Positions 11,978-36,700 of a DNA stretch of 64,000 nt are shown here, in pieces. Within the stretch, counting starts at the first letter, position 1. Each line of letters begins with the position of its first letter. A model generated the notes under the pieces. That model was given only the letters and a program-made list of their open reading frames with translations, did no database searches and was not told the origin of the DNA. The position numbers and the translations under genes were made by a program. Source of the DNA: Macrocybe gigantea (lineage: Eukaryota; Basidiomycota; Agaricomycetes; Agaricales; Callistosporiaceae); the NCBI GenBank assembly GCA_011319805.1, contig SJRY01000294.1, positions 229,057 through 293,056 on the forward strand, given 5' to 3'.

Positions 11978-12384
11978 CGTGACCTTTACAGTGAATACGA
12001 TCTTTCTTTTGTCCTTCCTCCTTTTTTGCTTGCATCGTCATTCAGCAGCGAGAGTGCGCGACAGAGCCAGTCTAGATGTCCTGAGGTGACAATGAACTTC
12101 CCGCCGATGTCGATGTTGCTGGCGTCGACAAGCTAATGGCTCATGACATGACTCGATAAATGTAAACGAATGAATCATTAGAAATTAGAATCAAGGGTTG
12201 ACGGGACCGTCCCAAGTCATTTGGCCACGTGATGATAAATATCATGTGGGTCTCAAGCGAAAGTCACATTTAAATTGTTTGGCTCGTGTCGCGTTTCCAC
12301 CCTCCTCGAAGGTCATCGATTCTTTCTCGTCTTCCTCCCTGTCTCTGCATTGCGTTGCTCTCCTCGTAAAAACCATAGAGATCT
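11978..12384. other. Intergenic region upstream of the SNF2-RING gene
   Basis: No coding signal. It contains the 3' end of the prefoldin gene and presumably the promoter of the following helicase gene. A short frame at 12198..12455 has no family features. Confidence 0.45.
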
Positions 12385-15300
12385 ATGCGTTCAAGCTCTT
12401 CACGACATGTCCTGGCCATTCGAACTCCATCCTTCCATGTCTGGGCGCGCTGTGAAGATCCTCCGTTTAGACCATACCTGAATGTCCCTGAGTTTGCTGA
12501 GCTCCTTCAATCATCCGCCCTCCAAGACATAGTTCAAAGCATTTCGAAGGGCAGGAAGCGTTCCGCAAGTGGAGCCGCTGAAGAGGTCCGACCTGTCAAG
12601 CGCCTCAAGACCGCAACATCGTCATCCTCAAGTAGCGACAGCAAATCGAAGCTTGACCCTCCAACGCTAAATTTGCCACCGCATTCCTACCCCGGACATC
12701 TCTCTCTTAGAGGCTGGGATGTCGAAAATCGCGAGCCCCCAGACGCCGCGGATGTAGTTCCGGTGTTTCATCACATTCTGGAAGTTCAATATACAAAAGA
12801 CGAGGTTCCACAAGTTGTAGGAAGGATGAGTAATGGCTGGAAGCTTGAGGAAGAGAAATTGAACGAAATGATTGCCGAGCTGCGTAGCTCCCTGTCAAAT
12901 CCTATGACGATTGATCTTGGTGATTTCCAATTGGCAGTTTATAAAGACCGCCTTGTTCTTGTCACCAGTTCGCGTCAAGGGAATCCTTTGTGGCTATTGT
13001 TGCTCCCACGATACACCCAAGACTCCGATGCCCAGTGGAACAATTATACCTCTCCAGTTACCGATGACCTTTTCATGGCTGCATTCATATTGCACTCAGA
13101 CGATCGAGCTAGAGTCACTGCAAATGTTAAGGTTGTCGTCAATCCCTCAATGCCTTTGCGAGATTCCAACAGCTTGCCATTTGAGCTTCAAGTCGAGATC
13201 AAGTTGTCATTCGTTGTTCCGAACATCTTCAACCTCATTCCCCGCAACCGCAAAAACCATTGGTCGATTGAGGACGCCCAAAGACGGGTTCTGGATCACC
13301 TTTATCCAACTGACCGGCCCACTCCCGATTCGTTCCACGGTTCGATTGATATCCCGTTCTTTTATTCCATTATGCGGCCCGCACCAGCTCTTTCTCAATC
13401 AATTTCGGATGCTGCTCTGCAACCAAAGGACCTCGTCCCTACTCTTTTACCATTCCAGCGCCGCAGTGTCGCATGGCTTTTGGACCGGGAAGGCAAGACT
13501 GTTACTGAGGAGGGTAATATAGTTTCGAAGCCGAAGATGGGCAACTTCAATCTCTGGGAAAAGGTGCAAGACGGAAACTACACTTGGTACCGTAACCGCT
13601 TGAGTGGAAATCTTTGTTCCGAGGAACCGCCGGAAATTTATTGCCAAGGTGGTATGCTAGCAGAGGAACCTGGCTTAGGCAAGACGCTGGAGATCATTTC
13701 TCTGATCTTACTGAACCCAGCTGCTCCGACCCGGACTCCAGAGGCCAAGCGTTCGGATCCAAAAGCTTCTTTGCCTATTAAAGTACGTTTTTTTTTATTG
13801 GACTTGGTTGAGCAATACGGACTTACTCTGTATGTCATGGCAGACGACGCTCATCGTTACTCCTCCAGCATTAGCATCACAATGGGCGGATGAGCTGGCT
13901 GCTCATGCGCCATCTCTCAAAGTCATGGTATACGATGGTTGGAAGAAGGTCCCGGTGCGGATTACGGGGAGCCCGGCGGAAGCACATCGCGTCAAGAACT
14001 TGAAGCCGAAGAAACGCGGTCGTGCAAACACTACCAGGCGTGGTAAAAAGACGACGAAATCGGAAGGGGGGCGAGACGCCATGAACATTGATGAGCCTGA
14101 AGAGGATTTGGATTGGTGCTCCTACGTCCAGACGTTCGACGTGGTGATCACCACTTATCAGGTCCTGCGTAGTGACCTGAACGTCGCCCGCATTCCTCTA
14201 TACCGACCGCGGAGGGAAGACGCCGCCTACTCGAACGACGAATACCCGCGTAGCCCCCTTGTCATGTGCGAGTGGTATCGGGTGGTCATGGACGAAGTCC
14301 AGATGGCCGGAGGGGCTCGTACAGAGTAAGCGTTGTTTGAGTCCATCAGAAGATTGCCCCGTCTTACTGATCTTGCAGGGATATGGTTTCGTTGATTCCA
14401 CGCCTATCATCTTTCGCGGTGTCCGGCACGCCCGCACGGGCACAAATCGCTGATTTGATTCACGTTCTCAAGTAAGTCGTTTGTCGAGCATGGATGCATA
14501 TTTGTATCGACTTTGTACGCAGATTCTTGCGCATAGACACCATTTTTGACTCTTCTCGCCTCTGGAAGAGGATGATCTCGTGCGGATTCGGTGCCGCCCA
14601 TCTCACAGCACTCTTTCAGTCCTGCGCTATCAGGTAAACTCCTCCTTAGAATTGTTGCCCACTATTTCAAACATTGAGAATCCGTTTAGGACTCTGAAAT
14701 CCCAAGTCAGTGAAGAGCTCACGATACCGCAGCAGACACGTTTCCTCGTCGGCATTACTATGGGCCCTGTCGAGAGACACGTTAGTGTTCGTTGACTGTT
14801 GGCCCCAACATTATTCACCGCTTGTGCTCTAGGTGTACGACCAAGCTCTTGAAACAGTTCTGCTTGAGCTTGGCCTCGACGCTCGAGGCATTGCTACCTC
14901 GCAAGGCTGGCGGGCGGATAGCACTGTTTTGCGGTCAGCTATACGAAAATTGCGTGGAATATGCACGCATCCTCAGGTACGTATGGACTTGATGAATCAC
15001 GTTTTCTAAGTTGTTGACTACTTCTATGCTTTTTTTCGTCTAGGTTGGGCAATTGCAAAAAACATACGATCGTCTTACGAAACCTGGAGTGGTTAAGACA
15101 ATTAATGACGTCCTTAAGGTCAACTTTTCTTCGCTTTGGAAACGAAGTAACTGCTGATGTTTTATCGCACAGAATATGGAGGAACAAAATTGGCGAAGCA
15201 CCATGGACGATGCCAAGTCTAGAGTAAGCGAGCTAACACTGCATTCGATGCACAACTATTTAGCCCTGGCTAGATCCAGAGTCTCATCACATATGCTCAA

Positions 15301-19394: not shown

Positions 19395-19714
19395 TCAATC
19401 ACGCACCCAGTAGCGACCACCCTCTCCGTTAGAGTAAGGTAGGTCTACATTGACTTCTCCCTGATACACGTGTCAGTCGGTCATCCACGATCATTCAAAG
19501 TTAGAACTCTATCACCTCTACATTGCGCACCCACCAGCGTCCTCCGTCTCCGTTTGAGAAGGGAAGGTCTGCATTGACTTCGCCCTGATCATTTTCTTTT
19601 CGGTCAATGGTGGATTGCCTATCAATTGCAACCCTTTACCTCAACGCCGCGCACCCAGTAACGACCTCCTTCGCCGTTTGAGTATGGCAGGTCAACGTTG
19701 ACTTCGCCTCTGTT
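19395..19714 (-). repeat. Three-unit exon repeat array of the peptide precursor
   Basis: Three copies of a roughly 69-nt coding unit, each on its own exon (19640..19714, 19516..19584, 19395..19460) and separated by 55-nt introns. The coding parts are near-identical at the protein level while the introns differ. The first copy has two extra codons at its start; the last is cut short by a stop after the WVRD residues. Confidence 0.8.
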
Positions 19715-19838
19715 CTATGGGGTGGCATTATCTACTCATTCGCTCTCAAGAGAAATTTGGACTTGCCTCAACTGCGGTAGGTGCAGCTTTGGTGGAAAGA
19801 ACAAGGGCAGCTGCTACAATGTACAGAAGAGCGTTCAT
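19395..19838 (-). CDS. Candidate RiPP precursor: secreted peptide with three exon-encoded repeats
   Basis: Four exons join in frame to a 93-residue protein: 19767..19838, 19640..19714, 19516..19584 and 19395..19460. Exon 1 is a signal peptide starting MNALLYIVAAALVLSTKA, followed by a short propeptide. Exons 2-4 each encode one repeat of about 23 residues. The invariant blocks are GEVN, DLP, SNG, GG and WVR; variable positions are V/A, Y/F, E/D, Y/W and G/N/D. Introns 2 and 3 are both 55 nt and phase 0. Intron 1 would use a GC-AG border. The protein starts 649 bases from a divergent UstYa-family oxidase. A secreted repeat precursor beside UstYa is the layout of ascomycete dikaritin RiPPs (ustiloxin, asperipin, phomopsin type). 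No Lys-Arg Kex2 sites separate the repeats, so processing must differ or use the single Arg residues. Function is inferred, not shown. Confidence 0.72.
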
Positions 19839-20487
19839 GGCAAATGAGTACGTGAATGATAGCGCTGTCTGGATTCCGACATTTATGCATCTGGCCTTGG
19901 GCTCTTCACGTATTCACCATGCTACAAGAAGACGGTTGTCCTTTCTATAAGGGGTTAGCCCCTCCAAAACCGAAGTCAAAGATTGAGCAACTCGGGGCAT
20001 CTTGTCGATTTGCAACCCTGGCCGTATTGGCCCTGATGCTGCTCATCCTAACATTCGAAGTGAGTGTGAATGCACTGAGGAAACGATTACATTAGGAATG
20101 GGCAAGCTGGGAACTGCTGCAGGATAATACAGTATTTTTTTGTTGAAATTTCTGATTTCCCCTACCAAACTCGTGTGCGACAAGCACAGGTCGAGAGTGA
20201 TGGAAATCTAGGGTCGTCACATTTATAACCAAACTGGCAACACACGGGATCAACCTGAACCATGAACGATGCATGAACACTGGGCGCTGAGCAGCGTGAC
20301 CTTCGAGATTGCATAAAACGAGTGATCTGCGGTCAGTGATGGTATGCAGTCTACAACATGTCCATCAGCAAGCCGTGCTAAATCGCTTGGCCTAAACTGT
20401 TTCTAGAAAGAGATCGAAGAGAAGCCTCTGTGGGCCCGAGTCGACGCCTGCCTTCCCTCTTGAGTCGTTCAAGCAGCAGTGTCTTTA
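19839..20487. promoter_or_regulatory. Divergent intergenic region of the precursor-UstYa pair
   Basis: 649 bases lie between the start codons of the minus-strand precursor and the plus-strand UstYa-like gene. No convincing coding frame is present. A shared bidirectional promoter would allow co-expression, which is inference from the head-to-head layout. Confidence 0.45.
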
Positions 20488-21508
20488 ATGGTCAACGGAT
20501 CCTCGGAGCACCTGCCCTTCATCGTCGAATCACCTAGTCTAGAGGACGGCCATGACACCACGTTCAGCAAGCAATCTGGACTCGGAAAATGGACTCGCAG
20601 AGGGCATGGACCTTGCTCGGCGACGACACGAGAGAAGTTCTTACTCGCACTCATAGTCCTACAAGCCATCGTATTGCTCGCCGTGTTACTCGTCAACCGT
20701 CGAGAGGTCGCTTGTCAAGGCCAGAGCAATGACTATCCCCTACTCTATTGTAAGCATTCTCAAGGCTTCTCGGGAGCTCCATTGATTCGCCTACCTGAAC
20801 AGCCCCTGCTCAATCAGTCATCGAATATGAAGTCAAATCTTTTACAGCGGGTCGAGAGCACAAGACCGTATATCAAGGAATATCGAAAGAAACGGATCGT
20901 GCTTGGGGAGAGCTATACAACCGTACGTCCGTTGACTGTCTCCAATTCCTCCGACTGGACATGTTTGAGAACAGATACAATAATGAAAATCCCAAAGAGC
21001 GAGGCCGCACTCTTGCCCAACAGGACATATCCCATCAAAGACGAACCGGGTTTCTATCTTGCTGGTCTTGACGTTTTTCATCAATTGCATTGCTTGGTGA
21101 GATTTGCTGTAAATCAAACTTGTGATAGACACGCTGATCTGCGTCTGTCAATAGAACAATGTCAGACGGGCTCTCCATCGCGAACACTATAGTCATGACC
21201 CAGACTTGGACGACGAGCATGTTTCGCACTGTGTGGACACTATCCGTCAGTCCTTGATGTAAGTTTAGTAATCGACGATCATATCAGACCTAATTACCTT
21301 GAAATTTAGGTGCAACGCGGACATATCGGTGAATGTATGGCAGTGGAGCAAGGAGCTGTCAGCAGTGGTTGGTTATAGCACGCAGGCGCATTCGTGTCGC
21401 AACTTTGACAAGCTTAGGGATTGGGCACGATCTAGGCGAGTGCACAAGTGGATTGATACTCGGTTGTTCGTGGAGGATGATTTGCCAGACCCTTCAATCA
21501 TCAGCTGA
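20488..21508 (+). CDS. UstYa-family oxidase (DUF3328)
   Basis: Five exons (20488..20749, 20803..20922, 20975..21096, 21155..21258, 21310..21508) join in exact phase to 268 residues. A basic N-terminus is followed by one membrane helix (FLLALIVLQAIVLLAVLLV). The lumenal part shows SPAQSVIEYEVKSF, then YQGISKETDRAW, then IPKSEAALLP. The two family signature motifs are HQLHCL and SHCVDTIRQSLMC. These histidine/cysteine motifs are essential in characterised members. UstYa and UstYb are membrane-anchored, copper-dependent oxidases that cyclise tyrosine-containing core peptides of ustiloxin-type RiPPs or act as halogenase- or desaturase-like tailoring enzymes. The stop is at 21506..21508 and no lesion is seen. 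The head-to-head neighbour is the repeat precursor, the obvious candidate substrate. DUF3328 proteins also occur without RiPPs, so the pairing is suggestive rather than proof. Confidence 0.9.
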
Positions 21509-21658
21509 ATTGTTATGACTGCTATTGCGCTAGATCCTGCGAAAATCGATGATTAATCTGGAACCGACAGCAGTGTAAGGCCTTCTAGACCATGGTCCGG
21601 TGAAGGTCAAGAAAACAACAGCATTTCAAGGCTCCGATCCCCTCGCAACCATCACAAT

Positions 21659-22270
21659 GCTGAGGACTCCGTTGGTATTTCTGGCTGCTTCTGCACTGGG
21701 CTCCTTCCATTCTTGACGTTGGTGAACGGGTTTCACAGTATTTTCGCAGCCCATCAGCCGGAGAAGCAACTGTTACCTTGATTAAAACATGAACAGATGC
21801 CACAGTGTTCAGTTACAGTCCCGACGATAAACCCATCAGTATTATACAAACCCATTGGCATTGGATCAAATATGGCAACAACATACGAAGGGATTTTGAT
21901 CTCGAATGAATATTTGAGTCCCGTAAGTTAAGCTTGAATTTTTCTATCCCAGCCAGCGTAATCAGGATGAAGCCAGGACAAATGATCACGCTCCAGGGCC
22001 AAAAGCTGAATGGTCGAGAGACGTGGTCATTGATAGACTACTGTCGGGAAACGTTGATCGCGGACGCGTTGCACTACGAGTATTCCTTGATCCCAGAACC
22101 CACTGTGCCAGTAACGGTAAGACTCGCGGCCGATAGCCTGGAATGCAATTTGGACGCCTCTGGAGGAGGTATAAGGGAAATCAAGCACCTTTTTATACGC
22201 TGGTTATGCAGAGCAATAGTGCTGTAATTTCAAGTTCAGCGAGAGGGTCGGCGTTTGCAACAAATATCGG
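21659..22270 (+). pseudogene. Broken tandem copy of the downstream secreted-protein gene
   Basis: The region is colinear with the gene at 22503..23270. It has a signal-peptide start (MLRTPLVFLAASALG at 21659), then a stretch equivalent to KPIGIGS..ATTYEGI. ALHYEYSLIPEPT follows, matching SHYQYSLIPEPT in the downstream copy, then AADSLECNLDASGGG. It cannot be read through: the second exon equivalent has an in-frame stop and a frame change around 21785-21860. About 85 bases corresponding to the segment after the ASGGG motif are missing near 22168. It is therefore a decayed tandem duplicate. Confidence 0.65.
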
Positions 22271-22502
22271 GGCGACACATACCCCATATTGTCTTCTGAT
22301 TACCTTTTTGATTTTTAAAGGGAGAAATGCTCTATGGGGATTGCGGACGGCCCGGTGGTGTTATGCCGGTGGTATCATGAAACGGCATAACAGCATACAT
22401 GCAGATGGTGTACTTTGTCCCACGGCTGTTGATACCTCCGGGGATTTTGATCTACGAGGGGGCATAAGAGCCGGTGCGAGGTGCGAGGTACACTGAGCCT
22501 CT

Positions 22503-23270
22503 ATGAAGCTGAAGACTCTGTTGCTGTGCCTCGCTACTTCCGCCCTAGGTTCGTGGACTGGCCGACATCGATTGAGGCGTGACTCACCGTCCTTTTGTAG
22601 CCTTAGCAGGGCAGACAAATGTTACGCTGATAGCGGTGCCACAGCCAACAGGCTCTATTTCAGTTCCATCGTTGCAGCCTTCAATTACATTCAAGCCAAT
22701 CGGTGTTGGATCGGATGGGGCCACAACGTACGAGGAGATTGTCGTCGTGAGCATGTACCTGGGACAAAACCGTGAGCTCGATAGACCGTCTTGAGACAAT
22801 AACGCTTGCTTACCTGCTCGCCAGCCTCAACCACTGCCATTGGTATAGAGCAATTAACGGCGGTCCCAGGTCCGACAATTACAGTGCACGGTAAGGCAGC
22901 GTTGAGCGTCCGAGAAATGGATCTAACGGACTGTCTAGGAACGTTTATCGAAGGTGCCTCGCACTACCAGTACTCTTTGATCCCCGAACCGACGGCAGCC
23001 TCGCTCATCGCGGCGGATAGCGTTGAATGCGATCTGAACGCGTCGGGTGGAGGCTCATGCGTCCTGAAAATCTGGGCAACAGTCCAGGGCCAAAGCACTG
23101 CACACACGCTGACTGCGACGTATACCGGGACACAGGTACCTTTTTACACGGTGCTTGTCAGCGAGACGCAGAGTAGCGACGGCGGAAGGCCGTCGAGAGG
23201 GCCTGTATTCGCGAGCTGCATGTTGGTAGGAGTTGGCGTGGCAACTGGGTTGATTCTTGGTGTCATTTGA
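22503..23270 (+). CDS. Small secreted protein with hydrophobic C-terminus
   Basis: Exon 1 (22503..22548) encodes a signal peptide beginning MKLKTLLLCLATSAL. The next exons read AGQTNVTLIAVPQPTGS, ITFKPIGVGSDGATTYEE, TTAIGIEQLTAVPGPTITV, GASHYQYSLIPEPTAAS, and then ADSVECDLNASGGGSCVLKI. The C-terminus is LVGVGVATGLILGVI with no polar tail after it, as in GPI-anchored or membrane-tethered surface proteins. Stop at 23268..23270. Similar small surface proteins are common in mushroom-forming fungi, without known function. It lies directly downstream of a broken copy of itself and near the RiPP-like pair, but nothing ties it to that pathway. Confidence 0.65.
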
Positions 23271-23719: not shown

Positions 23720-26700
23720 TTAGGAAGACACGGTGGGGCTGCTGGCGAAGCCGGTGGTGGTACTCGTGAACGCTGAATGGCAGGGAAAAAAAAATCGGAA
23801 ATGACACAAAGCCTTTTGCTCAAATCATACTTACGTGCACACATAGCATTGTACAGTGTCACCGCGGTGCTCAAGTCCTCCGTGGAGCAACCATGGGCTA
23901 CGCAATAGAAAACTAGGCCTCTCCAATTACTGCTCTCGCAAATACACTCCACATCAGACCTACGGTATGTCATCAGTAAGCCTACTGACAGAAGGGATGA
24001 TGACTGACGGAGAACGGGGAGACCCCAGCGGGATTCGTGGCAGGCAGGTCACAGGAAAGTGGTGACCTCGTGCGAGCCTAAAGGGGCAGGTCACGAACAT
24101 CCGTGACTTCGCCGCTGTCTGTAAGACCTCCATACACTCTCCTTCCCTCCGCGCGCTGGCGCCACCCCCTTCCCTCCTCTTTTTTTCCACCTCGCTCGGT
24201 CCTTTTTCTTTGTATTTATACGCCATTTATTTCGTTCTACTCGAGGGTACGTCAATGGTCGGACAGCACGCGATTCGAAGCTAAGGTACCCCATCAGCTT
24301 TCCACGCGACACGATGGCAGGCGTCTCCATGATCCAGATCGATCCTGCGCTACTCACGCGCGTTGACACGCCGTCCAACGCACCGCAGAGCGCGGGCGCG
24401 CTGCTTCCCGCGATAAATCTGGCAACGCGGGAGCGCCCAGCATGCGCTGGGGTTGTCCAACCACCCCGCCAGCAAGATGGTAGGCTGGTCACTACCCAGG
24501 AGGAATATCTCGTGTATCTGTGAGTATTGCTCACCCTCTCATCACTGTATTGTGCTCACTTGCCATTCAGCAACACGTTTATGCTCAAACGGCCTCTCCG
24601 CGAGGCTCTGATTGCACTCGGTGTGAATGCGCCTGCATCCGCCAACTGTGCTCGGCTACGACGACTACTGCTAGGGTTTTGGTGCGCATTTCCTGCATTT
24701 CATTCCATTTCAGGTGTAAATCTACTCGTTCAGGTACTCGAAGGAAGCTGGAACCCATGAGGCACAGAGCAATAGCAATGGTGGCAATGCTGGACCATCC
24801 TTCACACGGTTTGAAAAGGTAAAACAGCAGAATCTCGGAGCGGGAATGGCGATAGCAACGGCAACAACAGAGATGGCAACAACAGCAACAACAGCAATGG
24901 CAATGACAGCCACAATGACAGCGACGGTGACTGCAGATATGTCGGCCCCCCTTTGGCTACTCACACGTCCCAAACGTGCAAGAAACGGCAATCACAGCCA
25001 ATAGACCCGCGGCGACCGAAGAAGATCAAGACGTGAGGATAGACAGCAATCATGTTCTACCTTGTTGTACATTACTACTCATGTATTCATTTTCTATCAT
25101 GTACACTGCTAATTATGTCTGTACAACAGAGCTTGTCGTGCGTGGAATGTCTCAGCACGAAGGAAATCTTGTTTCAGTCCACCATGGGCATTGACAGGCT
25201 TTGGCCGGTATGTTCAAATCATTAGAGTTGCAGCTTCTGTGTGAATTTCCTCCAACAAAGGTGGTGGCTCCTGCCGAACAAACCATTTCATTCCAAGGAT
25301 TCACTGTGGCAGAAGGATTTCTTCGAAATGATAGCACGGCACATGCTTTGCATGTTGGTATTGACATCAGGTACGTCAAGTGGTTTCAAAGCTGTGAGCC
25401 TCGGTGATTTGCTGTCAACATAGTATCTGGCTAGATGGTTTCAATGCTGCTTTTCGCAACATGCCTCTTCATGCTCATGCAGGGGAGAACCCAGAATTGA
25501 GGGCACTTTTCTACAGAATGTGCCGCCTTCGCAGTTCACCAGTTGTTGCGGTCTTTGTTTTTGATGGTCCAGCACGTCCCGGATTCAAACGAGGCAAAAA
25601 GGTCATTATTCGACCTCTTTGGTTGGTTGATGCTGCCAAGGAGCTCATCCGGCACTTTGGATTCCATTGCCATGATGTGGGTATAATTGAAGCCAGTCCT
25701 TGAAACCGTGGCTGCAATATTGAATTTTACAAGGCACCTGGAGAGGCTGAAGCAGAATTGGCAGCCCTCAACCGCACAGGAATTTTGGATGCTATCATCA
25801 CTGATGACTGCGATGCACTTGTCTTCGGCGCATCTTGCATAATTAGAAAGTGGGATCTCTCATTCATGCTTTCATAGTACTAGAGCTTATTCTAAACCCG
25901 TGCGAAGCCCACAGGATAAATTGAGACCAGACAATGTCGCACTCTATGCTCAGGATGCCATCGAGCATCACGAGGCTGTAGGACTAACCTCGGGTGGCCT
26001 CCTGCTGTTCGCCCTGCTTTCAGGTGGTGACTACAGTTCTGGGCTGTCAGGTTGCAGACCCGCATTGTCACACCATCTTGCTCAGTGTGGACTTGGGGAT
26101 GAACTGCTGTCAACTGTTCGAGAAAATAGTCCCCAGAGCCATCCAGAGCTCCAGGCTCTCCTTGCAGAATGGCGTGAAAACCTCCGCACAGAGTTGACAA
26201 CCAATAAAAGTGGTTTCCTCAAGGCAACTTACCCCCAGCTGGCCAATCGAATCGACGAAAACTTTCCTGACTATGACATTCTGACTCGGTACATGAACCC
26301 AGTCACGTCCTTCTCCAGCACAGAGCCAGGTTCCTCTGTGGATCATTTGAACTTTGTGAATGCTTGGAAGCACCAAGAGCTTGACATTTATGGCATTGCC
26401 AGGTTCTGCACTCAGCGCTTTGGTTGGCATGCTGGCAACGACCTCATTAACAAGCTGCGGTCACTTTGGACCAGTGTCCTATGTAGCATGCTCATCGAGG
26501 TGAGAATTGCTGCTGCCCACCTGGGCATGTATGGTACACTTGCGCTTGCACTGTTGATTGCACATCTAGCCCGGACGACTTTTTGATCCAGACCGGGATT
26601 TACTAGCCACACCGAACATGAACACGAAGATCCTTCAAGTACGCCAAAAACGAAAACGATCTCCTGCTCAGGATTACAGTGCCGAGTCGGTCCATGTTGT

Positions 26701-28366
26701 CATCTCTACAGGCAATTTCGAAGCCTTGGTCGGATACCATGCAGATGCACCCAGTCAATCGGCACAATCCATTGACATTGATATTCCAAGAGTCATGGTT
26801 GCAACCGTGCTCACGGAGGCGGTGATGCATCGTCTCCTCTCGGCGTCATCATCCCGGGAAGCGGTGAGTCGTACACGCTGAGCACTGACTGATCACTGAC
26901 ATGCCTGCCACTGTAGGGCCCGCCTCCAGGTGATGGTGCACCTGCACAGCCAGGTACATCCATCGCAACAGGCGCGGAGGAGCTAATGGACCTTACCGAT
27001 GCCCCCGAACCACTGGGCCCCAGTGTGTCCATCGCGGCAGGTGGTGCGGAAGAGCTGATTGGCTTCACTGATGCTCCCGGATCTCCGGGGCCCATTACAT
27101 CCACAGCAGCAGCTACGCAAGAGGTGGCCGACCTCACTGACACCACTCCAGAACCCCTGCAGCCGAGCACATCCATGGCAGTGGGCACACGCGAGGTGAT
27201 CGACCTCACCGACACCACCCCAGAACCTCGGTGGCCGAGCACATCCATGGCGGCAGGCGCGCACGAGGTGGTGGACCTCATCGACACCACCCAGACCCCC
27301 CCGGATTCAAGTGTTAACGTTGGAATGGTCTCGACTCACCCTGCAGTCCCCAATACGTCGGGTCGTCAGCTCAGTCCGGAGATCATTGACCTCACAAGCG
27401 GTTAATTCACACATGCAACTTTTGTACCATTCCCATAGCAGTCCTCTATGTACTTGTACGTCGTGTATTCTGCCCGAAAAGCCCTTTCGTTGTTCGTCCT
27501 GCAACAGCTACCAAGTCGGAGAGTCCGTGAAATGACTGGCGGCCGTCAAGAAGCGTGCCGGGCTGCCGCGAATGAAATCCTGTCCCCAGTGGCTTGGGCG
27601 GAGGTCGAAGGAGCCCCGGATGGACGCCCAGCACTCGCTGCATGCTGCTTGTAAGTGCAGCACCCTCGGAATCGTCGAAACGCGTTACTCACCGTAGCCA
27701 TGACCCGAATTTGGTTGCAGTTTTGGGACCAATTCCCCTGCCGAGCGCCGAGCCCCATGATCGAACGGAGAATGGCTTCGTTTGACGGCCAGCGCGTCGG
27801 CGGGAGCGTCACCCTCGGCACCATTCAAATTCCTGTGACCCGGCCAGCCAGACGCGTCGTGACCTGAGACCACGGTGGGGCCGATCGGATTCGACAGATT
27901 CAGTCGAGGGGTCCGGGGGCTGCGTGGGTCACACCGTTGCCGGATCCGGCGTCGAGGGCTGCTGCTGGTCGTGCAGCGGGGGGAGGGCCGGGCTGGGACG
28001 ATCCCCAGCGCTGCAGAGGGGCCAGAGGGGTGGCGGGGCACCTGTCCAGGGACGCGTCTCGCGGCGGCAGCGAGCAGCGCGCGGTAGAGGACGTGGACGG
28101 AGGGGGCCTCGAGCCTGAGGGAGGGGAAGGCGCCGGAGGCGTCGAGTCACGCGGTGGCGGTGCCGAGCTGAGTCAGCGGGCGGCCAGTGACCCCAGGTTG
28201 GAGACACGGTCGCAGGTCACGGGGAGTCGTTCATAGAACATTCGGTGGTAACGGTCCGAGCACAGCTTTGCGCACACGGGGGCCAATCTTGGAATGGGTC
28301 TTGAGCTAACACTGATACGACAGATGACAGAAACAAGAGATGGACAAGCGATCGTTTCCACGCCAT
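23720..28366 (-). CDS. CFEM-domain secreted protein with a 4.26-kb first intron
   Basis: Exons 28221..28366, 23835..23959 and 23720..23772 join in exact phase (146 + 125 + 53 nt) to a 107-residue protein. Exon 1 gives a signal peptide (MAWKRSLVHLLFLSSVVSVLA) followed by PPCAQSCARTVTTEC. Exon 2 begins SDVECICESSNWRG and continues VFYCVAHGCS to YNAMCA. Exon 3 is a Ser/Thr-rich tail. The eight cysteines fall in the CFEM pattern only when exon 1 is joined to exon 2. Donor CC|GTGACC at 28220 and acceptor GTAG at 23960 bound a 4261-nt intron that carries two genes on the opposite strand. CFEM proteins are extracellular or GPI-anchored, and some bind haem or act as effectors. Whether so long an intron is still spliced is unknown; otherwise the gene is split. 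Confidence 0.75.
24314..25036 (+). CDS. Small Asn/Ser-rich protein with basic C-terminus
   Basis: The first exon from ATG 24314 reads MAGVSMIQIDPALLTRVDTP and ends in QEEYLVYL at a GT donor (24524). The next exon has NTFMLKRPLREALIALGVNA followed by RLRRLLLGFW, an amphipathic helical segment. After another intron there is a low-complexity stretch of AAC/GGC/AGC codons (Asn, Gly, Ser, Asp repeats, about 24840-24935). The frame ends in a lysine/arginine-rich tail, RRPKKIKT, before stop 25034..25036, which could be a nuclear localisation signal. No known domain. It lies inside the CFEM intron just upstream of the nuclease gene, on the same strand. The exon joins around 24820 are uncertain. Confidence 0.4.
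25184..27405 (+). CDS. PIN/XPG-like nuclease (GEN1-related) with C-terminal SUMO-interacting-motif-like repeats
   Basis: It starts MGIDRLWP at 25184, the XPG/FEN1 N-terminal signature. Further exons read FQGFTVAEGFLRND, IWLDGFNAAFRNMPLHAHAG, AVFVFDGPARPGFKRGKK, then the acidic active-site block APGEAEAELAALN, and TDDCDALVFGASCIIR. After these comes LLFALLSGGDYSSGLSG, the helix-hairpin-helix entry. Acidic residues in GIDI, FDGP, GEAEAE, TDDCD and GGDY match the metal-binding set of flap/Holliday-junction nucleases. The C-terminal 140 residues contain repeated DLTD-type motifs (see separate entry). Stop at 27403..27405. Such genes are present in many copies in Agaricomycete genomes. This one is nested in the CFEM intron. 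The main frame appears open apart from introns. Confidence 0.8.
26980..27400 (+). repeat. Array of SIM-like repeats in the nuclease tail
   Basis: The coding sequence repeats a unit of about 23 codons ending in a hydrophobic-acidic motif: LMDLTD (26983), VADLTD (27127), VIDLTD (27196), VVDLID (27265) and a final IIDLT (27379). Spacers read TTPEP..PSTSMA. VIDLT-type motifs next to acidic residues are the classical SUMO-interacting motif, as in RNF4 and SLX4. Confidence 0.65.
27406..28211. other. GC-rich tract without a supported gene
   Basis: The stretch is strongly GC-rich, especially 27880-28200, and has open frames in many phases because stops are scarce. None shows a domain. It forms the right part of the segment inserted in the CFEM intron. 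Confidence 0.45.
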
Positions 28367-29194
28367 GATGCTTTCAAAGACAGGTTGAAGAAGAAGGAGG
28401 AGGTGGAATGGCCAAGCAGGAGAGTTGAAATAAGGCACAGGACTTGAGGCGAATTCAGCCCGGTGTGGGCCTTTTTGCTTGATGAACAACCTACCTCGCG
28501 ATAGTGCATCCTGTTTGTCCATTCCGAAGGCCAGAACCAAGCTCGATGAGGAGAAATGCAATCTAGGATCACAAACACGCACAGGACGGACAAAGGCAAT
28601 GTTGGAAATGGAGTGTTCTGATCGCAACGCCCGTTGGTCCGACTGATGGGTTTGAAACGGTTCCTATTCCATCTTTGCAAATTCTTATCTGTTTCTTATC
28701 TATAAGTAGTTGTACTGCTGATGTGCCCCTCCCCATGCGTTTGCCTCACGAGCTCACCGAGGCCAAATGGAATCTATTTGTTTTGCTGCCCCCTGTCCTG
28801 CTGTTCGACTCGCCATCCGCTGGCTGATTTCCCGCGTCGCGCTCGAATTCTAACAGGCAACGACGTCAGAGTCATCACTTTTGCATAGAAGAAATGCTCG
28901 TAAGAAAAAAGAAGAAACGATGGCTAGAAGTCGATTCTTTGCGTAGCCGGTTTGTGACGCAAAATTCAGACGCGAATATGGTTGACATGCCTCCAGTGGT
29001 GTCTTGAGTAAAGAACTACGCGAATCGCCTCCGACAGCTGAACCGAAGCACATTTGTCATTATACATGATAATACACGTCGAAAAGATCTACATAATGTC
29101 GACTTTATATTTCCTCTTCTCCTAATCAAACAAGAACCCGCCGCCGCGGGGGGGGGGGGGTTGATGTGACAAAAGCCAAGCAGGAACTGGTAAT
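28367..29194. other. Intergenic region with a long G run
   Basis: No gene is supported. It contains the promoter of the CFEM gene on its left side and the 3' flank of the BBE-like oxidase gene, with an uninterrupted G run near 29149-29160. Confidence 0.45.
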
Positions 29195-30997
29195 TCAGGC
29201 AGGCGTGATGGGGAACCACTTGTTGAAGATATTATCTGGGTCGTAGCGCTTCTTGATCTTCTGGAGCCTGGGATAGTTTTCCGCGAAGATGAGCTGGGCC
29301 TTATCCTTGACGCCGTCTGAGCTATTGTTCAGTGGTTCGGTGTCTGACAGAAAGACGGCGATAAACGGAACGGTCAACGAAAAAAGAGTCAACGTGGCGC
29401 GTCACCATAATTGCCATATCCGAGGCCGTGGAAGTCTGCCGTCTCCCGCTGCTGGTGCGACGTGATGATGTTCGCGATCTGGTGCGCGATGCGCCTCGCG
29501 TGTGTGACGGTCTCGTCCCTCTTCGCCTCGTCAAAATCGGGCGCGGCAACGCTCTGACCGTCCCACTGGACGATGACGAGCACGTTGGAAGTCGGGTCGC
29601 GGCGGAACGCGGTCTCGTCGCGCGCGACGGCGTTGATCTGCTGGAGTGGAAAGTACTCAAAGACGACCGCCGGGCGCAGAGAGGTCGACGCGTGCGTCTG
29701 GGTTACGATGTCGAGACATTGCTGGGTGTAGCCCACGTGTGGGCCCTTGTGTGACACGCCCTTCATGTACATGCCGTACCCATGTGGAACACCAGGGTTC
29801 TGGGTTCGATGCTAGATGAGGAGGCGGGAGGCGGAAAGAAAGATAGAGAACACGTACTTGGACGCTATTGAGTGTTTCGTAGGGGATCTCCTTCGTCTCG
29901 TCCACGACGGGCCCGATATCGATGAAGGATTTAAATTTCTCGCGGCCTTCAGCCTCAGATCCGTTATAGAACGGCCAAACGATGATAACGGGCTAAACGA
30001 CATCAACAAAAGCGACGCAGAAACGTAGATAAGCAGCACGCACACGTCCCTCGGGCGAGACGGTGATCAACTGCAGCATCGCCTCGTTTTCGTTGGTGCG
30101 GGACAACCACTCGTTCGTGGTCTCGACGAGCTTCTCAAGTGCGGTCGGGGCAAAGATGAGCGCGCCGGACCAGACGGTCGCGCGTTGCGGATGGAGCTTG
30201 AGCACGAACTCGGTCACGACGCCGAAGTTGGACCCGCCGCCGCGAAGGCCGAAGAAGAGATCTGGGTGCTCGGAGCTGTTGGCCGTGAGGACCTCACCGC
30301 TCGCTGTGACCACGGTTGCCTAACCGTGCGAGCGCGGGCGGTGAGGATAGGAAAGAAGGAGACTTAGGGAAGGGCGGAAGGGGCCTACCTGGACCAAGTT
30401 GTCGATGACGAGGCCGTAGGAGCAGCTAAGCCACCCGTAGCCACCGCCCAGGATCAGTCTGCATTTGGTGTAAGATTCTGCGCCAGCGTCGGTGGTGCTG
30501 TTACTTACCCTCCCACACCGGTCTGTATAATGAAAGATAAATATTAGCAGTGCCGATTGAAACTCAGTGCGAAGCTTGAGCTTGATCGATCGAGGGCGTA
30601 CATGATTGACAGTGCCTGCAACCGACGCCAGACCATATTTGATGGCCTCTTTGTCCACCGTCTCCCAGAGCGCGCCGCCGCCAACATACCCAAGCTTCTT
30701 CTCAGGATCGACTCTGACAGTGTTGATGTACCTCGACAAGTCGATGACGAGCCCGCCCTCGCTCGATGAGGCGCCCGACGGGTTATGCCCTCCGCCGCGG
30801 ATGGCGATGGGCAGCTTGGTCGCGCGGGCGTACTTGATCGCGAGGGCAATGTCCTGCTCGTCCTTCACAAATGCGACAATCTTGGCCCTGCGCTCTGCGT
30901 TGATAGCCCACCGCGCGATCGCTGCTGCATAGTCGCTGTCTGTCGGAGTGACGACGTCCCCTTTGAAGTCGTTCTTAAAGGCCTCAAGGTCTGACAT
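29195..30997 (-). CDS. BBE-like FAD-linked oxidoreductase
   Basis: From ATG 30997: MSDLEAFKNDFKGDVVTP, then the FAD-binding PCMH domain with PIAIRGGGHNPSGASS (the His of GGGHN is the usual covalent FAD attachment residue) and GGLVIDLSRY. Next come LILGGGYGWLSCSYGLVIDN, DLFFGLRGGGSNFGVV, GVPHGYGMYMKG, and the berberine-bridge C-terminal motif around FAENYPRLQKIKKRYDPDN followed by FNKWFPI. Stop at 29195. The Cys of the second flavin link, often CxxV after the GGG block, is replaced here (GYGWLS), so probably only the His link is present. Enzymes of this type oxidise sugars, alkaloids or polyketides; the substrate is unknown. No clear signal peptide. Introns are short and the frame seems intact. 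Confidence 0.88.
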
Positions 30998-31055
30998 GCT
31001 GCTTATCTCAATCAGATCGTGGGTTTGCAGAACAGAGAAAGGCGACCTTCACGGA

Positions 31056-33716: not shown

Positions 33717-36700
33717 ATGCGTCTTGTGGCTTTGCTGGGTATGGGAGCCATCTATAAGAAGTGCTGGTGAGTAGCAGGGATACTTCATGGGACGTTTGGA
33801 GCGACACTCAAATCATCTGTTATTCAGACGCTACTCTCGGCTTGACCTCGCTGCAAGTTGAAAACAAGGTTGCACCCCTTGGCATTGACGTCAGCCCTCG
33901 CTTCTCCTGGGTAGTAACGTCCAGCCAGCGCGGAGTGTCCCAAACATCCTACCAGATTCTCGTGTCAAAAGTCAAGCCTGGCAACAGTGACGTTTGGGAC
34001 AGCGGCGTGGTCCTATCCAATAGACCGTATCTCATTGAGTATGATGGACCCGCCTTGTCCTCAAACACATTATACTTCTGGAGTGTCAACGTTGCTGCGT
34101 CGACCGAAGAAACGGCTACAGCGTCTTCCAACTTCACCACCGGTTTTCTGTCTGCGAGTGATTGGAATCCTAGCATCTGGATTGGGAAACCGAACGATGA
34201 TCGAGCCATCTCCACAAATATCGTCAGCGCGTTTCGTTCTGCTTCTTGGATTTGGACTTCTGAGGACGGTGCACCAGATGCCCCGCCAGATGACCGAGCC
34301 TTTCGCAAGACATACAGTGCACCTTCTGGCAAAACTGCGGTTTCCGCTACAATACTATTGACGGTGGATGATCAATTTACATTATTTGTCAACGGCCAGC
34401 CGATAGGTTCCTCCCCCAACACGACTGATGTCTGGAAAGTCTCTCAAGTATTCCACGTCCCTCTCAGCTCTCGCTCTAATGTGTTCGCAATCCGTGGCAT
34501 AAATTTACCGGACGTAAATACAGGAGGTGTTAGTCCTGCTGGAGTTTTGGCTGCAATAGAAATTACTCTTTCGGATGGGTCGTCGACGGTGATCACTTCC
34601 GACACTACATGGCGTTCCTTCAAAGGTGTCCCATCCGACTTTCAATCACTTTCGTTTGACGATTCACAGTGGCCTGCGGCCGCAGGACTGGCAGCTTATG
34701 GATCAGGTCCCTGGGGTACCCAAGTCACAATTCCTTCTCCAACGCCAGAACTTTCGTTCACTAATTCGACGTGGATTTGGTCCTCTGAAACATCGCCCCC
34801 ATCAGCGCCTGCCCAGCCCCGTGCATTCCGCAAGACATTGGTTGCGCCCAGCGGAAAGACATTGAAGTCGGCAGTCATCATAATCACAGCTGATGACGGC
34901 TTTGACTTGTACCTCAATGGCGATCGAGTGGGCTCGTCTCCCAATCAGTTGGATATCTGGAAATCGGCGCAGAAGTTCACGGTCAATCTCGCAGGTCCCT
35001 CTGCACTCGTTGCCGTTAGGGCTGTCAACCTCGCTGACAGAGGCAACGGTGGCGACTCTCCTGCAGGCCTGCTTGCTGCATCCAAGTGACGTTTTCGGGT
35101 GGCTCCTTGGACACGGTCGTGTCAGATACATCATGGAAAGTCATCAAGACTATCCCAGCGGGGTTCGAACAGCCCTCGACAGACGATTCCAGCTGGAGTT
35201 TTGCAGCGTCGTTAGGGAAGTTTGGCGTTGGTCCTTGGGAACCAGTGTAACAATTTCAGATTCACTTGCTGAACACCCGGCTCCACTGCTACGCAAAGAA
35301 TTTTCAATATCGAAGTCCATTGCATTCGCACGGCTATATTATTCAGCGGGCGGGTATGTTAGCATTTCCATCAACGGCGCCCTGCCTCCGACCGCGTTCT
35401 AACTCCTGGATTCACGAAATACGATACCGAGGTCCAATACATTTCCGTAGATGTTGCCTCCAAGCTCCGACAAGGAACAAATGCCGTTGGCGTTGAGCTT
35501 GGCCGAAGCCACTATGGTGTTACTCAGGGAAACGTCTGGAATTGGAACAATGCACCATGGCACGCCGAACCCGCGCTTAGGATGGTGCTTTCAATTGTTT
35601 TCACGGATGGCACCACGACCAAAGTCGTATCAGACTCGTCCTGGCAAGTTAAAGAAGGCCCAACGCGTCTGGACGATGTCTTTGGTGGTGAAAACTTCGA
35701 TGGTGAGCGCTCCTATTATGTACCACCTCCTACATTTGATTCACTTTCATAAATGTGTAGCTCGCTTATTGCAGCCTGGATTCGATCAACCAGGTTTTGT
35801 GCCCACTGGTTGGATCAACGCTCAGGTTGTGGCTGGGCCAAGAGGCGCCTTGGTTAATCAGGGCCAGCCTCCCACGCGTATCATACAAACGCTAACACCT
35901 GTAACGATCACTCAACCAGTGCAGGGAATCTATGTTGCTGCTTTCGAACGTAATGTTGCTGGTTGGGCCCGAATCACTGCGACCGGACCGGAAGGAAGTT
36001 TGATCACGATTCACTATGGTGAAAGCTGAAGGTGGGTGATAAATCTTTTTGTATCTACATATGAGTTTAACTGCTGCTTTTCTTGCAGAATGATGGAACC
36101 GTTATGTTCGAAGACACGAATCATTATTATGCAAATAATTTTCAAACGGGTAATTTGACAATTATCTAAACGTTTCATGTTCTCACAAGTGCATTACCAT
36201 AGACCGATTCTGGCTTTCCGGAACGGGGTCTTCAGAATCCTTCGAGGCGAAATTTAGCTACAAAGGCTATCAATATGTTCAAGTGGAGGGATGGCCTGGC
36301 TCATCTCCGCCAACAGCGTCCAATATCATAGGGCGTGTTGTCCATGATGACCTATATCCGCGTGGCAGCTTCGACTCATCCAATGATCTTCTCAACAAAA
36401 TGCACAAGGCGGCCCTTTTCACGATGTTGAACAACGTTCACAGCATACCGGAAGATTGTCCAACGTTTGAAAAGAATGGTTGGTCAGGGGATGCGATGTT
36501 AGGCGCTGTAAGTTTCGGATAATGTTCCGCGGCTTGCACTTATTTTGTATCCCAGGAAATGTTTCTTACGAACTTCGCGGCGGAAGAACTGCTTGCAAAA
36601 TATGTGCAAGACCTCGATGAGAGTCGGCCAAATGGATCTGGTCTCCAGGTGTGATAGCACCTGACAGCGGATGGGGAGCGAATAACCAGGCTCCTACTTG

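Follow-up and report, generated by a model that had tools for sequence, protein, structure and literature searches.

Proteins of the DUF3328 (UstYa) family are regarded as the class-defining enzymes of the dikaritins (Montalban-Lopez 2021, cited in PMC12048977), whose precursors are described as a signal peptide followed by repeats that are separated by dibasic Kex2 sites (PMC9769878). The five-gene dikaritin set given in PMC12048977 includes a tyrosinase, a methyltransferase and a peptidase or transporter. Ustiloxins, phomopsins and asperipin-2a are reported to be linked through Tyr (PMC7329392), and victorin to be closed through Phe (PMC9233826). Victorin and the epichloecyclins, which come from ascomycetes, are presented as products of dikaritin-type pathways with multi-core, Kex2-processed precursors (PMC9233826). 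The KEPs of Agaricomycetes are defined by Kex2 sites between their repeats (PMC6339444, PMC9769878), and cycloamanides and borosins, two other groups of ribosomal peptides from mushroom lineages, are according to PMC9769878 processed in the cytoplasm by S9 oligopeptidases.

That UstYa-like genes of Agaricomycetes are probably involved in dikaritin production has already been published (PMC8893723); the same source reports 16 such genes in Pleurotus ostreatus, six of them developmentally expressed, versus only two UstYa loci in the Macrocybe gigantea assembly used here. For the Basidiomycota, 103 of 1680 repeat precursors were reported near DUF3328 genes, with the comment that these fungi may hardly cyclise repeat peptides, or that the motif of the cyclisation factor may differ (PMC7329392). 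This survey, whose procedure was fundamentally the same as that of PMC6339444, filtered like the latter on Kex2 sites between repeats. Literature searches on UstYa, DUF3328 and dikaritins in basidiomycetes or mushrooms, with most subscription journals and supplementary files outside their reach, returned no title or abstract opening that dealt with a Kex2-free or exon-per-repeat precursor. Searches on exon duplication in RiPP precursors found no paper, and those on UstYa together with copper and cyclization gave nothing to the point.

The DNA analysed here, a 64-kb stretch of the M. gigantea genome (64,000 nucleotides, referred to as the window) on contig C292, contains a three-gene cassette (Table 1). 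Its repeat protein is a likely RiPP precursor, and cross-linking by the adjacent UstYa-type oxidase is predicted, which would make this a dikaritin-like system without Kex2 dibasic sites; we regard this reading as probable. Like the Ascomycota dikaritins (ustiloxins, phomopsins, asperipin-2a), the locus combines a signal-like leader, a repeated core and an adjacent UstYa/DUF3328 oxidase, and like that of asperipin-2a (PMC7329392) it has a single oxidase. It differs from them in the lack of dibasic Kex2 sites in the precursors, in a unit of about 18–20 residues instead of a short core such as YAIG, in the location of the repeats on separate exons, in having Trp and not Tyr as the invariant aromatic residue, and in an extra third gene of no known family, with no tyrosinase or methyltransferase in the ten neighbouring frames scanned. 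Since a definition based on the enzyme covers the locus and one based on Kex2 sites does not, we call it a dikaritin-like variant and not a standard member: the DUF3328/UstYa protein has its catalytic motifs and the precursor has multiple near-identical core repeats, which are not split by dibasic KR, RR or KK pairs. With the KEPs the precursor shares a small size, a signal-like leader and repeats, but not the Kex2 sites; with victorin and the epichloecyclins it shares the multi-core organisation, the cores being different. Cycloamanides and borosins are not known to have a secretion leader or a UstYa enzyme.

Table 1. Features of the cassette and of the precursor gene at the second locus. Positions refer to the window unless contig C206 is named.
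Feature	Position	Strand or orientation	Basis
Precursor exon 1, signal-like leader MNALLYIVAAALVLSTKAAPTAVE	19767–19838	−	GC donor (GCAAGT); homologous leader in the C206 paralogue with GT donor
Precursor exon 2, repeat unit 1 NRGEVNVDLPYSNGEGGRYWVRGVE	19640–19714	−	Direct repeats and splice model
Precursor exon 3, repeat unit 2 GEVNADLPFSNGDGGRWWVRNVE	19516–19584	−	Direct repeats and splice model
Precursor exon 4, repeat unit 3 and stop GEVNVDLPYSNGEGGRYWVRD	19395–19460	−	Direct repeats and splice model
Divergent intergenic region between precursor and oxidase, 649 bp	19839–20487		Promoter comparison with the 689-bp C206 counterpart
UstYa-type oxidase, 268 aa	20488–20749, 20803–20922, 20975–21096, 21155–21258, 21310–21508	+	Splice model, PF11807
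Truncated tandem copy of the third gene	21782–22224 (approximate)	+	Last-exon match covers residues 2–43 of 110; frame ends soon after
Third cassette gene, 204 aa	22503–22548, 22601–22771, 22825–22890, 22939–23270	+	Splice model; homologue C206:33445–33771, same order and strand
C206 precursor, 69 residues, two repeat units	C206:31063–30992, 30935–30864, 30810–30751, 30697–30692	Head-to-head with oxidase	Homologous leader, phase-0 intron after leader (GT donor)

On the minus strand of 19395–19838 a 71-nt direct repeat occurs three times with a spacing of exactly 124 nt, and four exons join into a gene for 93 residues, a leader and three repeats, with one phase-0 exon per repeat. All the introns are in phase 0, the first being GC-AG and the second and third GT-AG. 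The leader contains a hydrophobic stretch (Kyte–Doolittle 2.9 over 11 residues) followed by small residues, and is kept in the C206 paralogue. The same region was found on contig C203 with 98% identity over 7.4 kb; we take this copy to be the other haplotype, and the precursor protein encoded by it is identical in its 93 residues. Between the two haplotypes the precursor exons carry one substitution in 282 sites, versus eight substitutions and three indel columns in the 163 sites of the introns (Fisher p = 0.0018, substitutions only). Of the intron indels, the one in intron 2 is a 2-base deletion and that in intron 1 a 1-base insertion; in coding sequence either would shift the frame. All 20 core residues of repeat 1 recur in repeat 3, but the 20 codons differ at 11 bases, with 11 synonymous and no nonsynonymous changes; in a random-mutation simulation, none of 200,000 sets of 11 mutations preserved the protein. 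Judged from this 11:0 count, the precursor peptide is under purifying selection. The splice model, the haplotype contrast and the synonymous changes thus bear out the four in-phase exons, 93 residues and three near-identical repeats that a preliminary description of this DNA had proposed. It had also noted that no Lys-Arg Kex2 sites separate the repeats and that maturation would be unlike the classical case, and both statements hold, as neither the 93-residue precursor nor its 69-residue C206 counterpart contains a single KR, RR, KK or RK pair.

In a protein database search, which covered proteins with exact shared five-residue words and similar length, no homologue of the precursor reached E ≤ 10, whether the query was the one sequence (31 candidates) or the alignment of the two precursors (71 candidates). 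NCBIfam gave no match, and the two sub-threshold Pfam matches (14.5 and 13.8 bits; cut-offs 24 and 28) were taken as chance. The pattern GGR-x-WVR had six matches in the whole assembly, three per allele and none elsewhere; the reversed pattern had five, so the count of six alone proves nothing.

The divergently adjacent gene, previously described as an intact UstYa-type oxidase, is indeed one. The product of its five spliced exons matched PF11807 with 163.6 bits over profile positions 18–220 of 220, whereas the unspliced sequence gave two single frames of only 24.9 and 33.8 bits. The motifs HQLHC and HCVDTIRQ are present, also in the C206 paralogue, and correspond to HxxHC and HC...R, which we take to be the motifs of the UstYa family (PF11807). 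One N-terminal hydrophobic helix was read by eye, and the oxidase of the C203 allele differs in one of 268 residues. The protein search with the oxidase gave 254 relatives, the best 120 of which were listed; among the matches listed, the best named relatives were from Gymnopilus, Phlegmacium, Cyathus, Crucibulum, Guyanagaster and Armillaria (Gymnopilus and Crucibulum being Agaricales, taxonomy checked), with other Agaricomycetes and a few ascomycetes lower. The AlphaFold model of one relative from Gymnopilus junonius (P0002; mean pLDDT 72, pTM 0.58) has a membrane-type helix at 38–59 and a mixed helix/strand domain. In P0002 numbering, H155, H158 and C159 are invariant in 58 aligned relatives of the 120 listed, and H185, C186 and R191 occur in at least 90% of these 58. 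No relative with a solved structure was found at E ≤ 1. A maximum-likelihood tree was built from 62 rows, namely both oxidases of this genome plus 60 of the 120 matches listed; it places the C292 and C206 proteins as sisters (support 97/72) within a group that includes sequences from Gymnopilus and Galerina.

The second UstYa oxidase, on contig C206, has 263 residues, is 74% identical to that of C292 and starts 689 bp from its precursor gene. The 41.2-Mb assembly was searched exon by exon, for which reason the counts may be lower bounds. The repeat region gave seven exon-level matches, namely the six C292/C203 copies and C206:30834–30932 (E 2.4e-4); the oxidase gave 15, on C292, C203 and C206 only; the Pfam UstYa family gave seven, on the same three contigs; and the C206 precursor as query gave nine, at the loci of these contigs only. 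Precursor relatives and UstYa genes thus coincide at two of the two loci found in these exon-level searches. The dikaritin-like pairing of precursor and oxidase put forward in the preliminary description gains support from this result: the assembly searches found one further UstYa locus, and there, too, the oxidase gene lies head-to-head with a gene of this repeat-precursor family. The last exon of the C206 precursor consists of the final Val and the stop only; its last intron has 53 nt, and if left unspliced the frame continues for 44 residues past W-V, so that the paralogue ends at W-V only if this modelled intron is spliced.

Between the two oxidases, synonymous sites have reached saturation (pS 0.83 for the catalytic part), with 161 of 182 residues of the catalytic part identical; the N-terminal part is far more diverged than the catalytic part (pN 0.38 versus 0.05). 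No similarity above shuffles was found between the 649-bp and 689-bp intergenic regions, which have 20 8-mers in common (shuffle mean 12.9, maximum 26) and no common 10-mer. Because the pair was kept despite saturated synonymous sites in the oxidase and lost promoter similarity, the precursor and the oxidase very likely work together, as far as can be judged from the sequences.

Alignment of the five units, three near-identical ones from C292 and two more divergent ones from C206, gave six invariant columns (E, V, N, D, W and V). Once the last C206 unit is shifted by one residue, inspection by eye shows [Y/F]-x-N-G and the aromatic residue before the Trp to be kept in 5/5 units. Aromatic residues occur at three places in all five, and only the Trp never changes. 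The paralogue narrows the unit to EVN-x-D...[Y/F]-x-NG...[Y/W]-W-V. The conserved blocks DLP-x-SNG and GGR-x-WVR given earlier are therefore correct for the C292 copy and do not apply to the family as a whole, as the C206 paralogue keeps only part of them. The variable Y/F and Y/W positions, earlier taken as plausible cross-link sites, do vary, Tyr being replaced by Phe in unit 2 of C292, but the best candidate lies elsewhere, in the Trp of [YW]-W-V, the aromatic residue that is invariant in the five units. With this exchange, not all units could form a ustiloxin-like Tyr-ether at that site; given the closure of victorin through Phe as described in PMC9233826, it is compatible with an enzyme of that kind. 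In four units Arg follows W-V; in the last C206 unit, with the intron spliced as modelled, W-V is the C-terminus of the protein. The single Arg inside the C292 units (GGR) speaks against a protease that simply cuts at each Arg.

The precursor–oxidase pair previously described stands as a pair and not as the full unit, since a third gene, ending at 23270, makes it a three-gene cassette. Inspected by eye, the third protein begins with a signal-like stretch and has a hydrophobic tail at its C-terminus; it is likely to be a cell-surface protein with a GPI or membrane tail. It matched no Pfam or NCBIfam family at threshold; one NCBIfam match of 12.4 bits (cut-off 87) was rejected as chance. Its last exon had five matches in the assembly, corresponding to the gene and its truncated tandem copy on both C292 and C203 and to a single homologue on C206 (44% identity), downstream of the oxidase. 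When the window was compared with the frames of C206:22000–41999, strong matches were obtained only between window 19398–23267 and C206:30840–33777; the best match outside the cassette had an E value of 4.9e-4 (38 residues, 37% identity), and no convincing further gene was common to the two stretches. As modelled, the unit common to both loci is three genes in the same order and orientation, and in whole-assembly searches the precursor, oxidase and third-gene families were each found only at these two loci and the C203 allele.

The ten neighbouring frames scanned, which do not cover every exon, contain no tyrosinase, methyltransferase, peptidase or transporter. No protease was recognised near the cassette in this non-exhaustive scan; matches at the level of the Peptidase_S8 family occur elsewhere in the assembly. 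The neighbouring frames include a FAD_binding_4 oxidoreductase (30323–31048, −), about 9 kb away and conceivably a tailoring enzyme, an alpha-L-rhamnosidase (33758–35086, +) and an SNF2-type protein (12379–13890, +). These three have no strong counterpart in the C206 stretch compared and for this reason were not counted as cassette members.

We infer the chemistry, processing and product of the system as follows. The leader would route the precursor to the secretory pathway, where the oxidase, with its N-terminal helix as anchor, would face it. In each unit the oxidase may recognise the constant EVN-x-D stretch and act on the [Y/F]-x-NG-x(3,4)-[Y/W]-W-V part, most likely on the invariant Trp, which by its constancy is the best single candidate. 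A protease from outside the cassette would then release the units by cutting at single-Arg or acidic spacers, with W-V as the probable mature C-terminus, in view of the stop of the paralogue in the splice model and the Arg that comes next in the other four units. The third protein would hold, export or receive the peptide at the cell surface; it could also itself be a substrate of the oxidase. As for the absence of precursor homologues from a protein search in which the oxidase has many, either the small genes are unannotated elsewhere or the oxidase has another substrate as its partner in other species.

Other explanations differ widely in probability. If the repeat gene were not real, but open frames that happen to splice together or a repeat without coding function, the protein search without a homologue and the GC donor needed at intron 1 would be accounted for; at the corresponding intron, however, the paralogue has a GT donor, RNA folding of the precursor gene gave no structure above shuffles (z = 0.30), and the haplotype and paralogue evidence, together with the 11:0 synonymous count, largely refutes this explanation and leaves it a negligible probability. 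It is very improbable that the association is passive, with three unrelated genes duplicated as one segment and adjacent without joint function. A segmental duplication would leave the same cassette order on both contigs, as is observed, but the divergence is old, with saturated synonymous sites in the oxidase and no promoter similarity left, no convincing flanking gene is still common in the stretches compared, and all three genes keep their arrangement and the repeat units are conserved.

A linear secreted peptide (a signal, pheromone-like or surface-active), never cross-linked, with the UstYa protein acting on the third protein or on a small molecule, deserves more weight and is nevertheless unlikely. 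UstYa-family proteins also occur in pathways without such a precursor, for instance that of cyclochlorotine, and the third protein is linked to the oxidase as tightly as the precursor is. A peptidomics study of four Agaricomycetes describes their repeat-derived peptides as linear, or modified to a minimal extent (PMC9769878). What speaks against a linear peptide in the present case is that precursor and UstYa genes were found in the assembly at two loci each and these are the same two, and that aromatic residues are kept at three places in each of the five units, allowing for the one-residue shift in the last.

Starting from the preferred reading, that of a precursor cross-linked by the adjacent oxidase, a wider proposal can be made, though only tentatively, as it seems to us possible rather than probable: a mushroom-lineage, Kex2-free class of UstYa RiPPs, with units of about 18 residues on separate exons, a Trp-centred oxidative cross-link, and a three-gene cassette (precursor, oxidase and surface-anchored partner) duplicating and diverging as a unit. 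If such a class exists, surveys requiring Kex2 sites would be blind to it, and this would help to explain why only 103 of 1680 precursors were reported beside DUF3328 genes in PMC7329392. The precursor gene described here, with short exons and no dibasic sites, would be missed by surveys that apply the Kex2-site filter. A suitable search rule would be tandem phase-0 exons of 60–75 nt beside UstYa genes, instead of KR sites. The locus supplies a concrete candidate substrate for one mushroom UstYa oxidase, and the candidate repeat peptides EVNVDLPYSNGEGGRYWV, EVNADLPFSNGDGGRWWV and EVNADAQAYDNGPNTYWV have masses that are directly searchable.

Splice donors vary between the loci: intron 1 of the precursor gene has a GC donor here, in both haplotypes, and GT in C206, while the third oxidase intron shows the reverse, with GC in the C206 model and GT here. 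The haplotypes also differ downstream of the cassette. An insertion of about 4.2 kb (window ~24011–28234), flanked by the 5-bp direct repeat AGAAC and with no terminal repeats in a self-comparison, is present in the C292 haplotype and absent from C203, and a second haplotype-specific insertion of about 255 bp (window ~28600–28855) lies near it.
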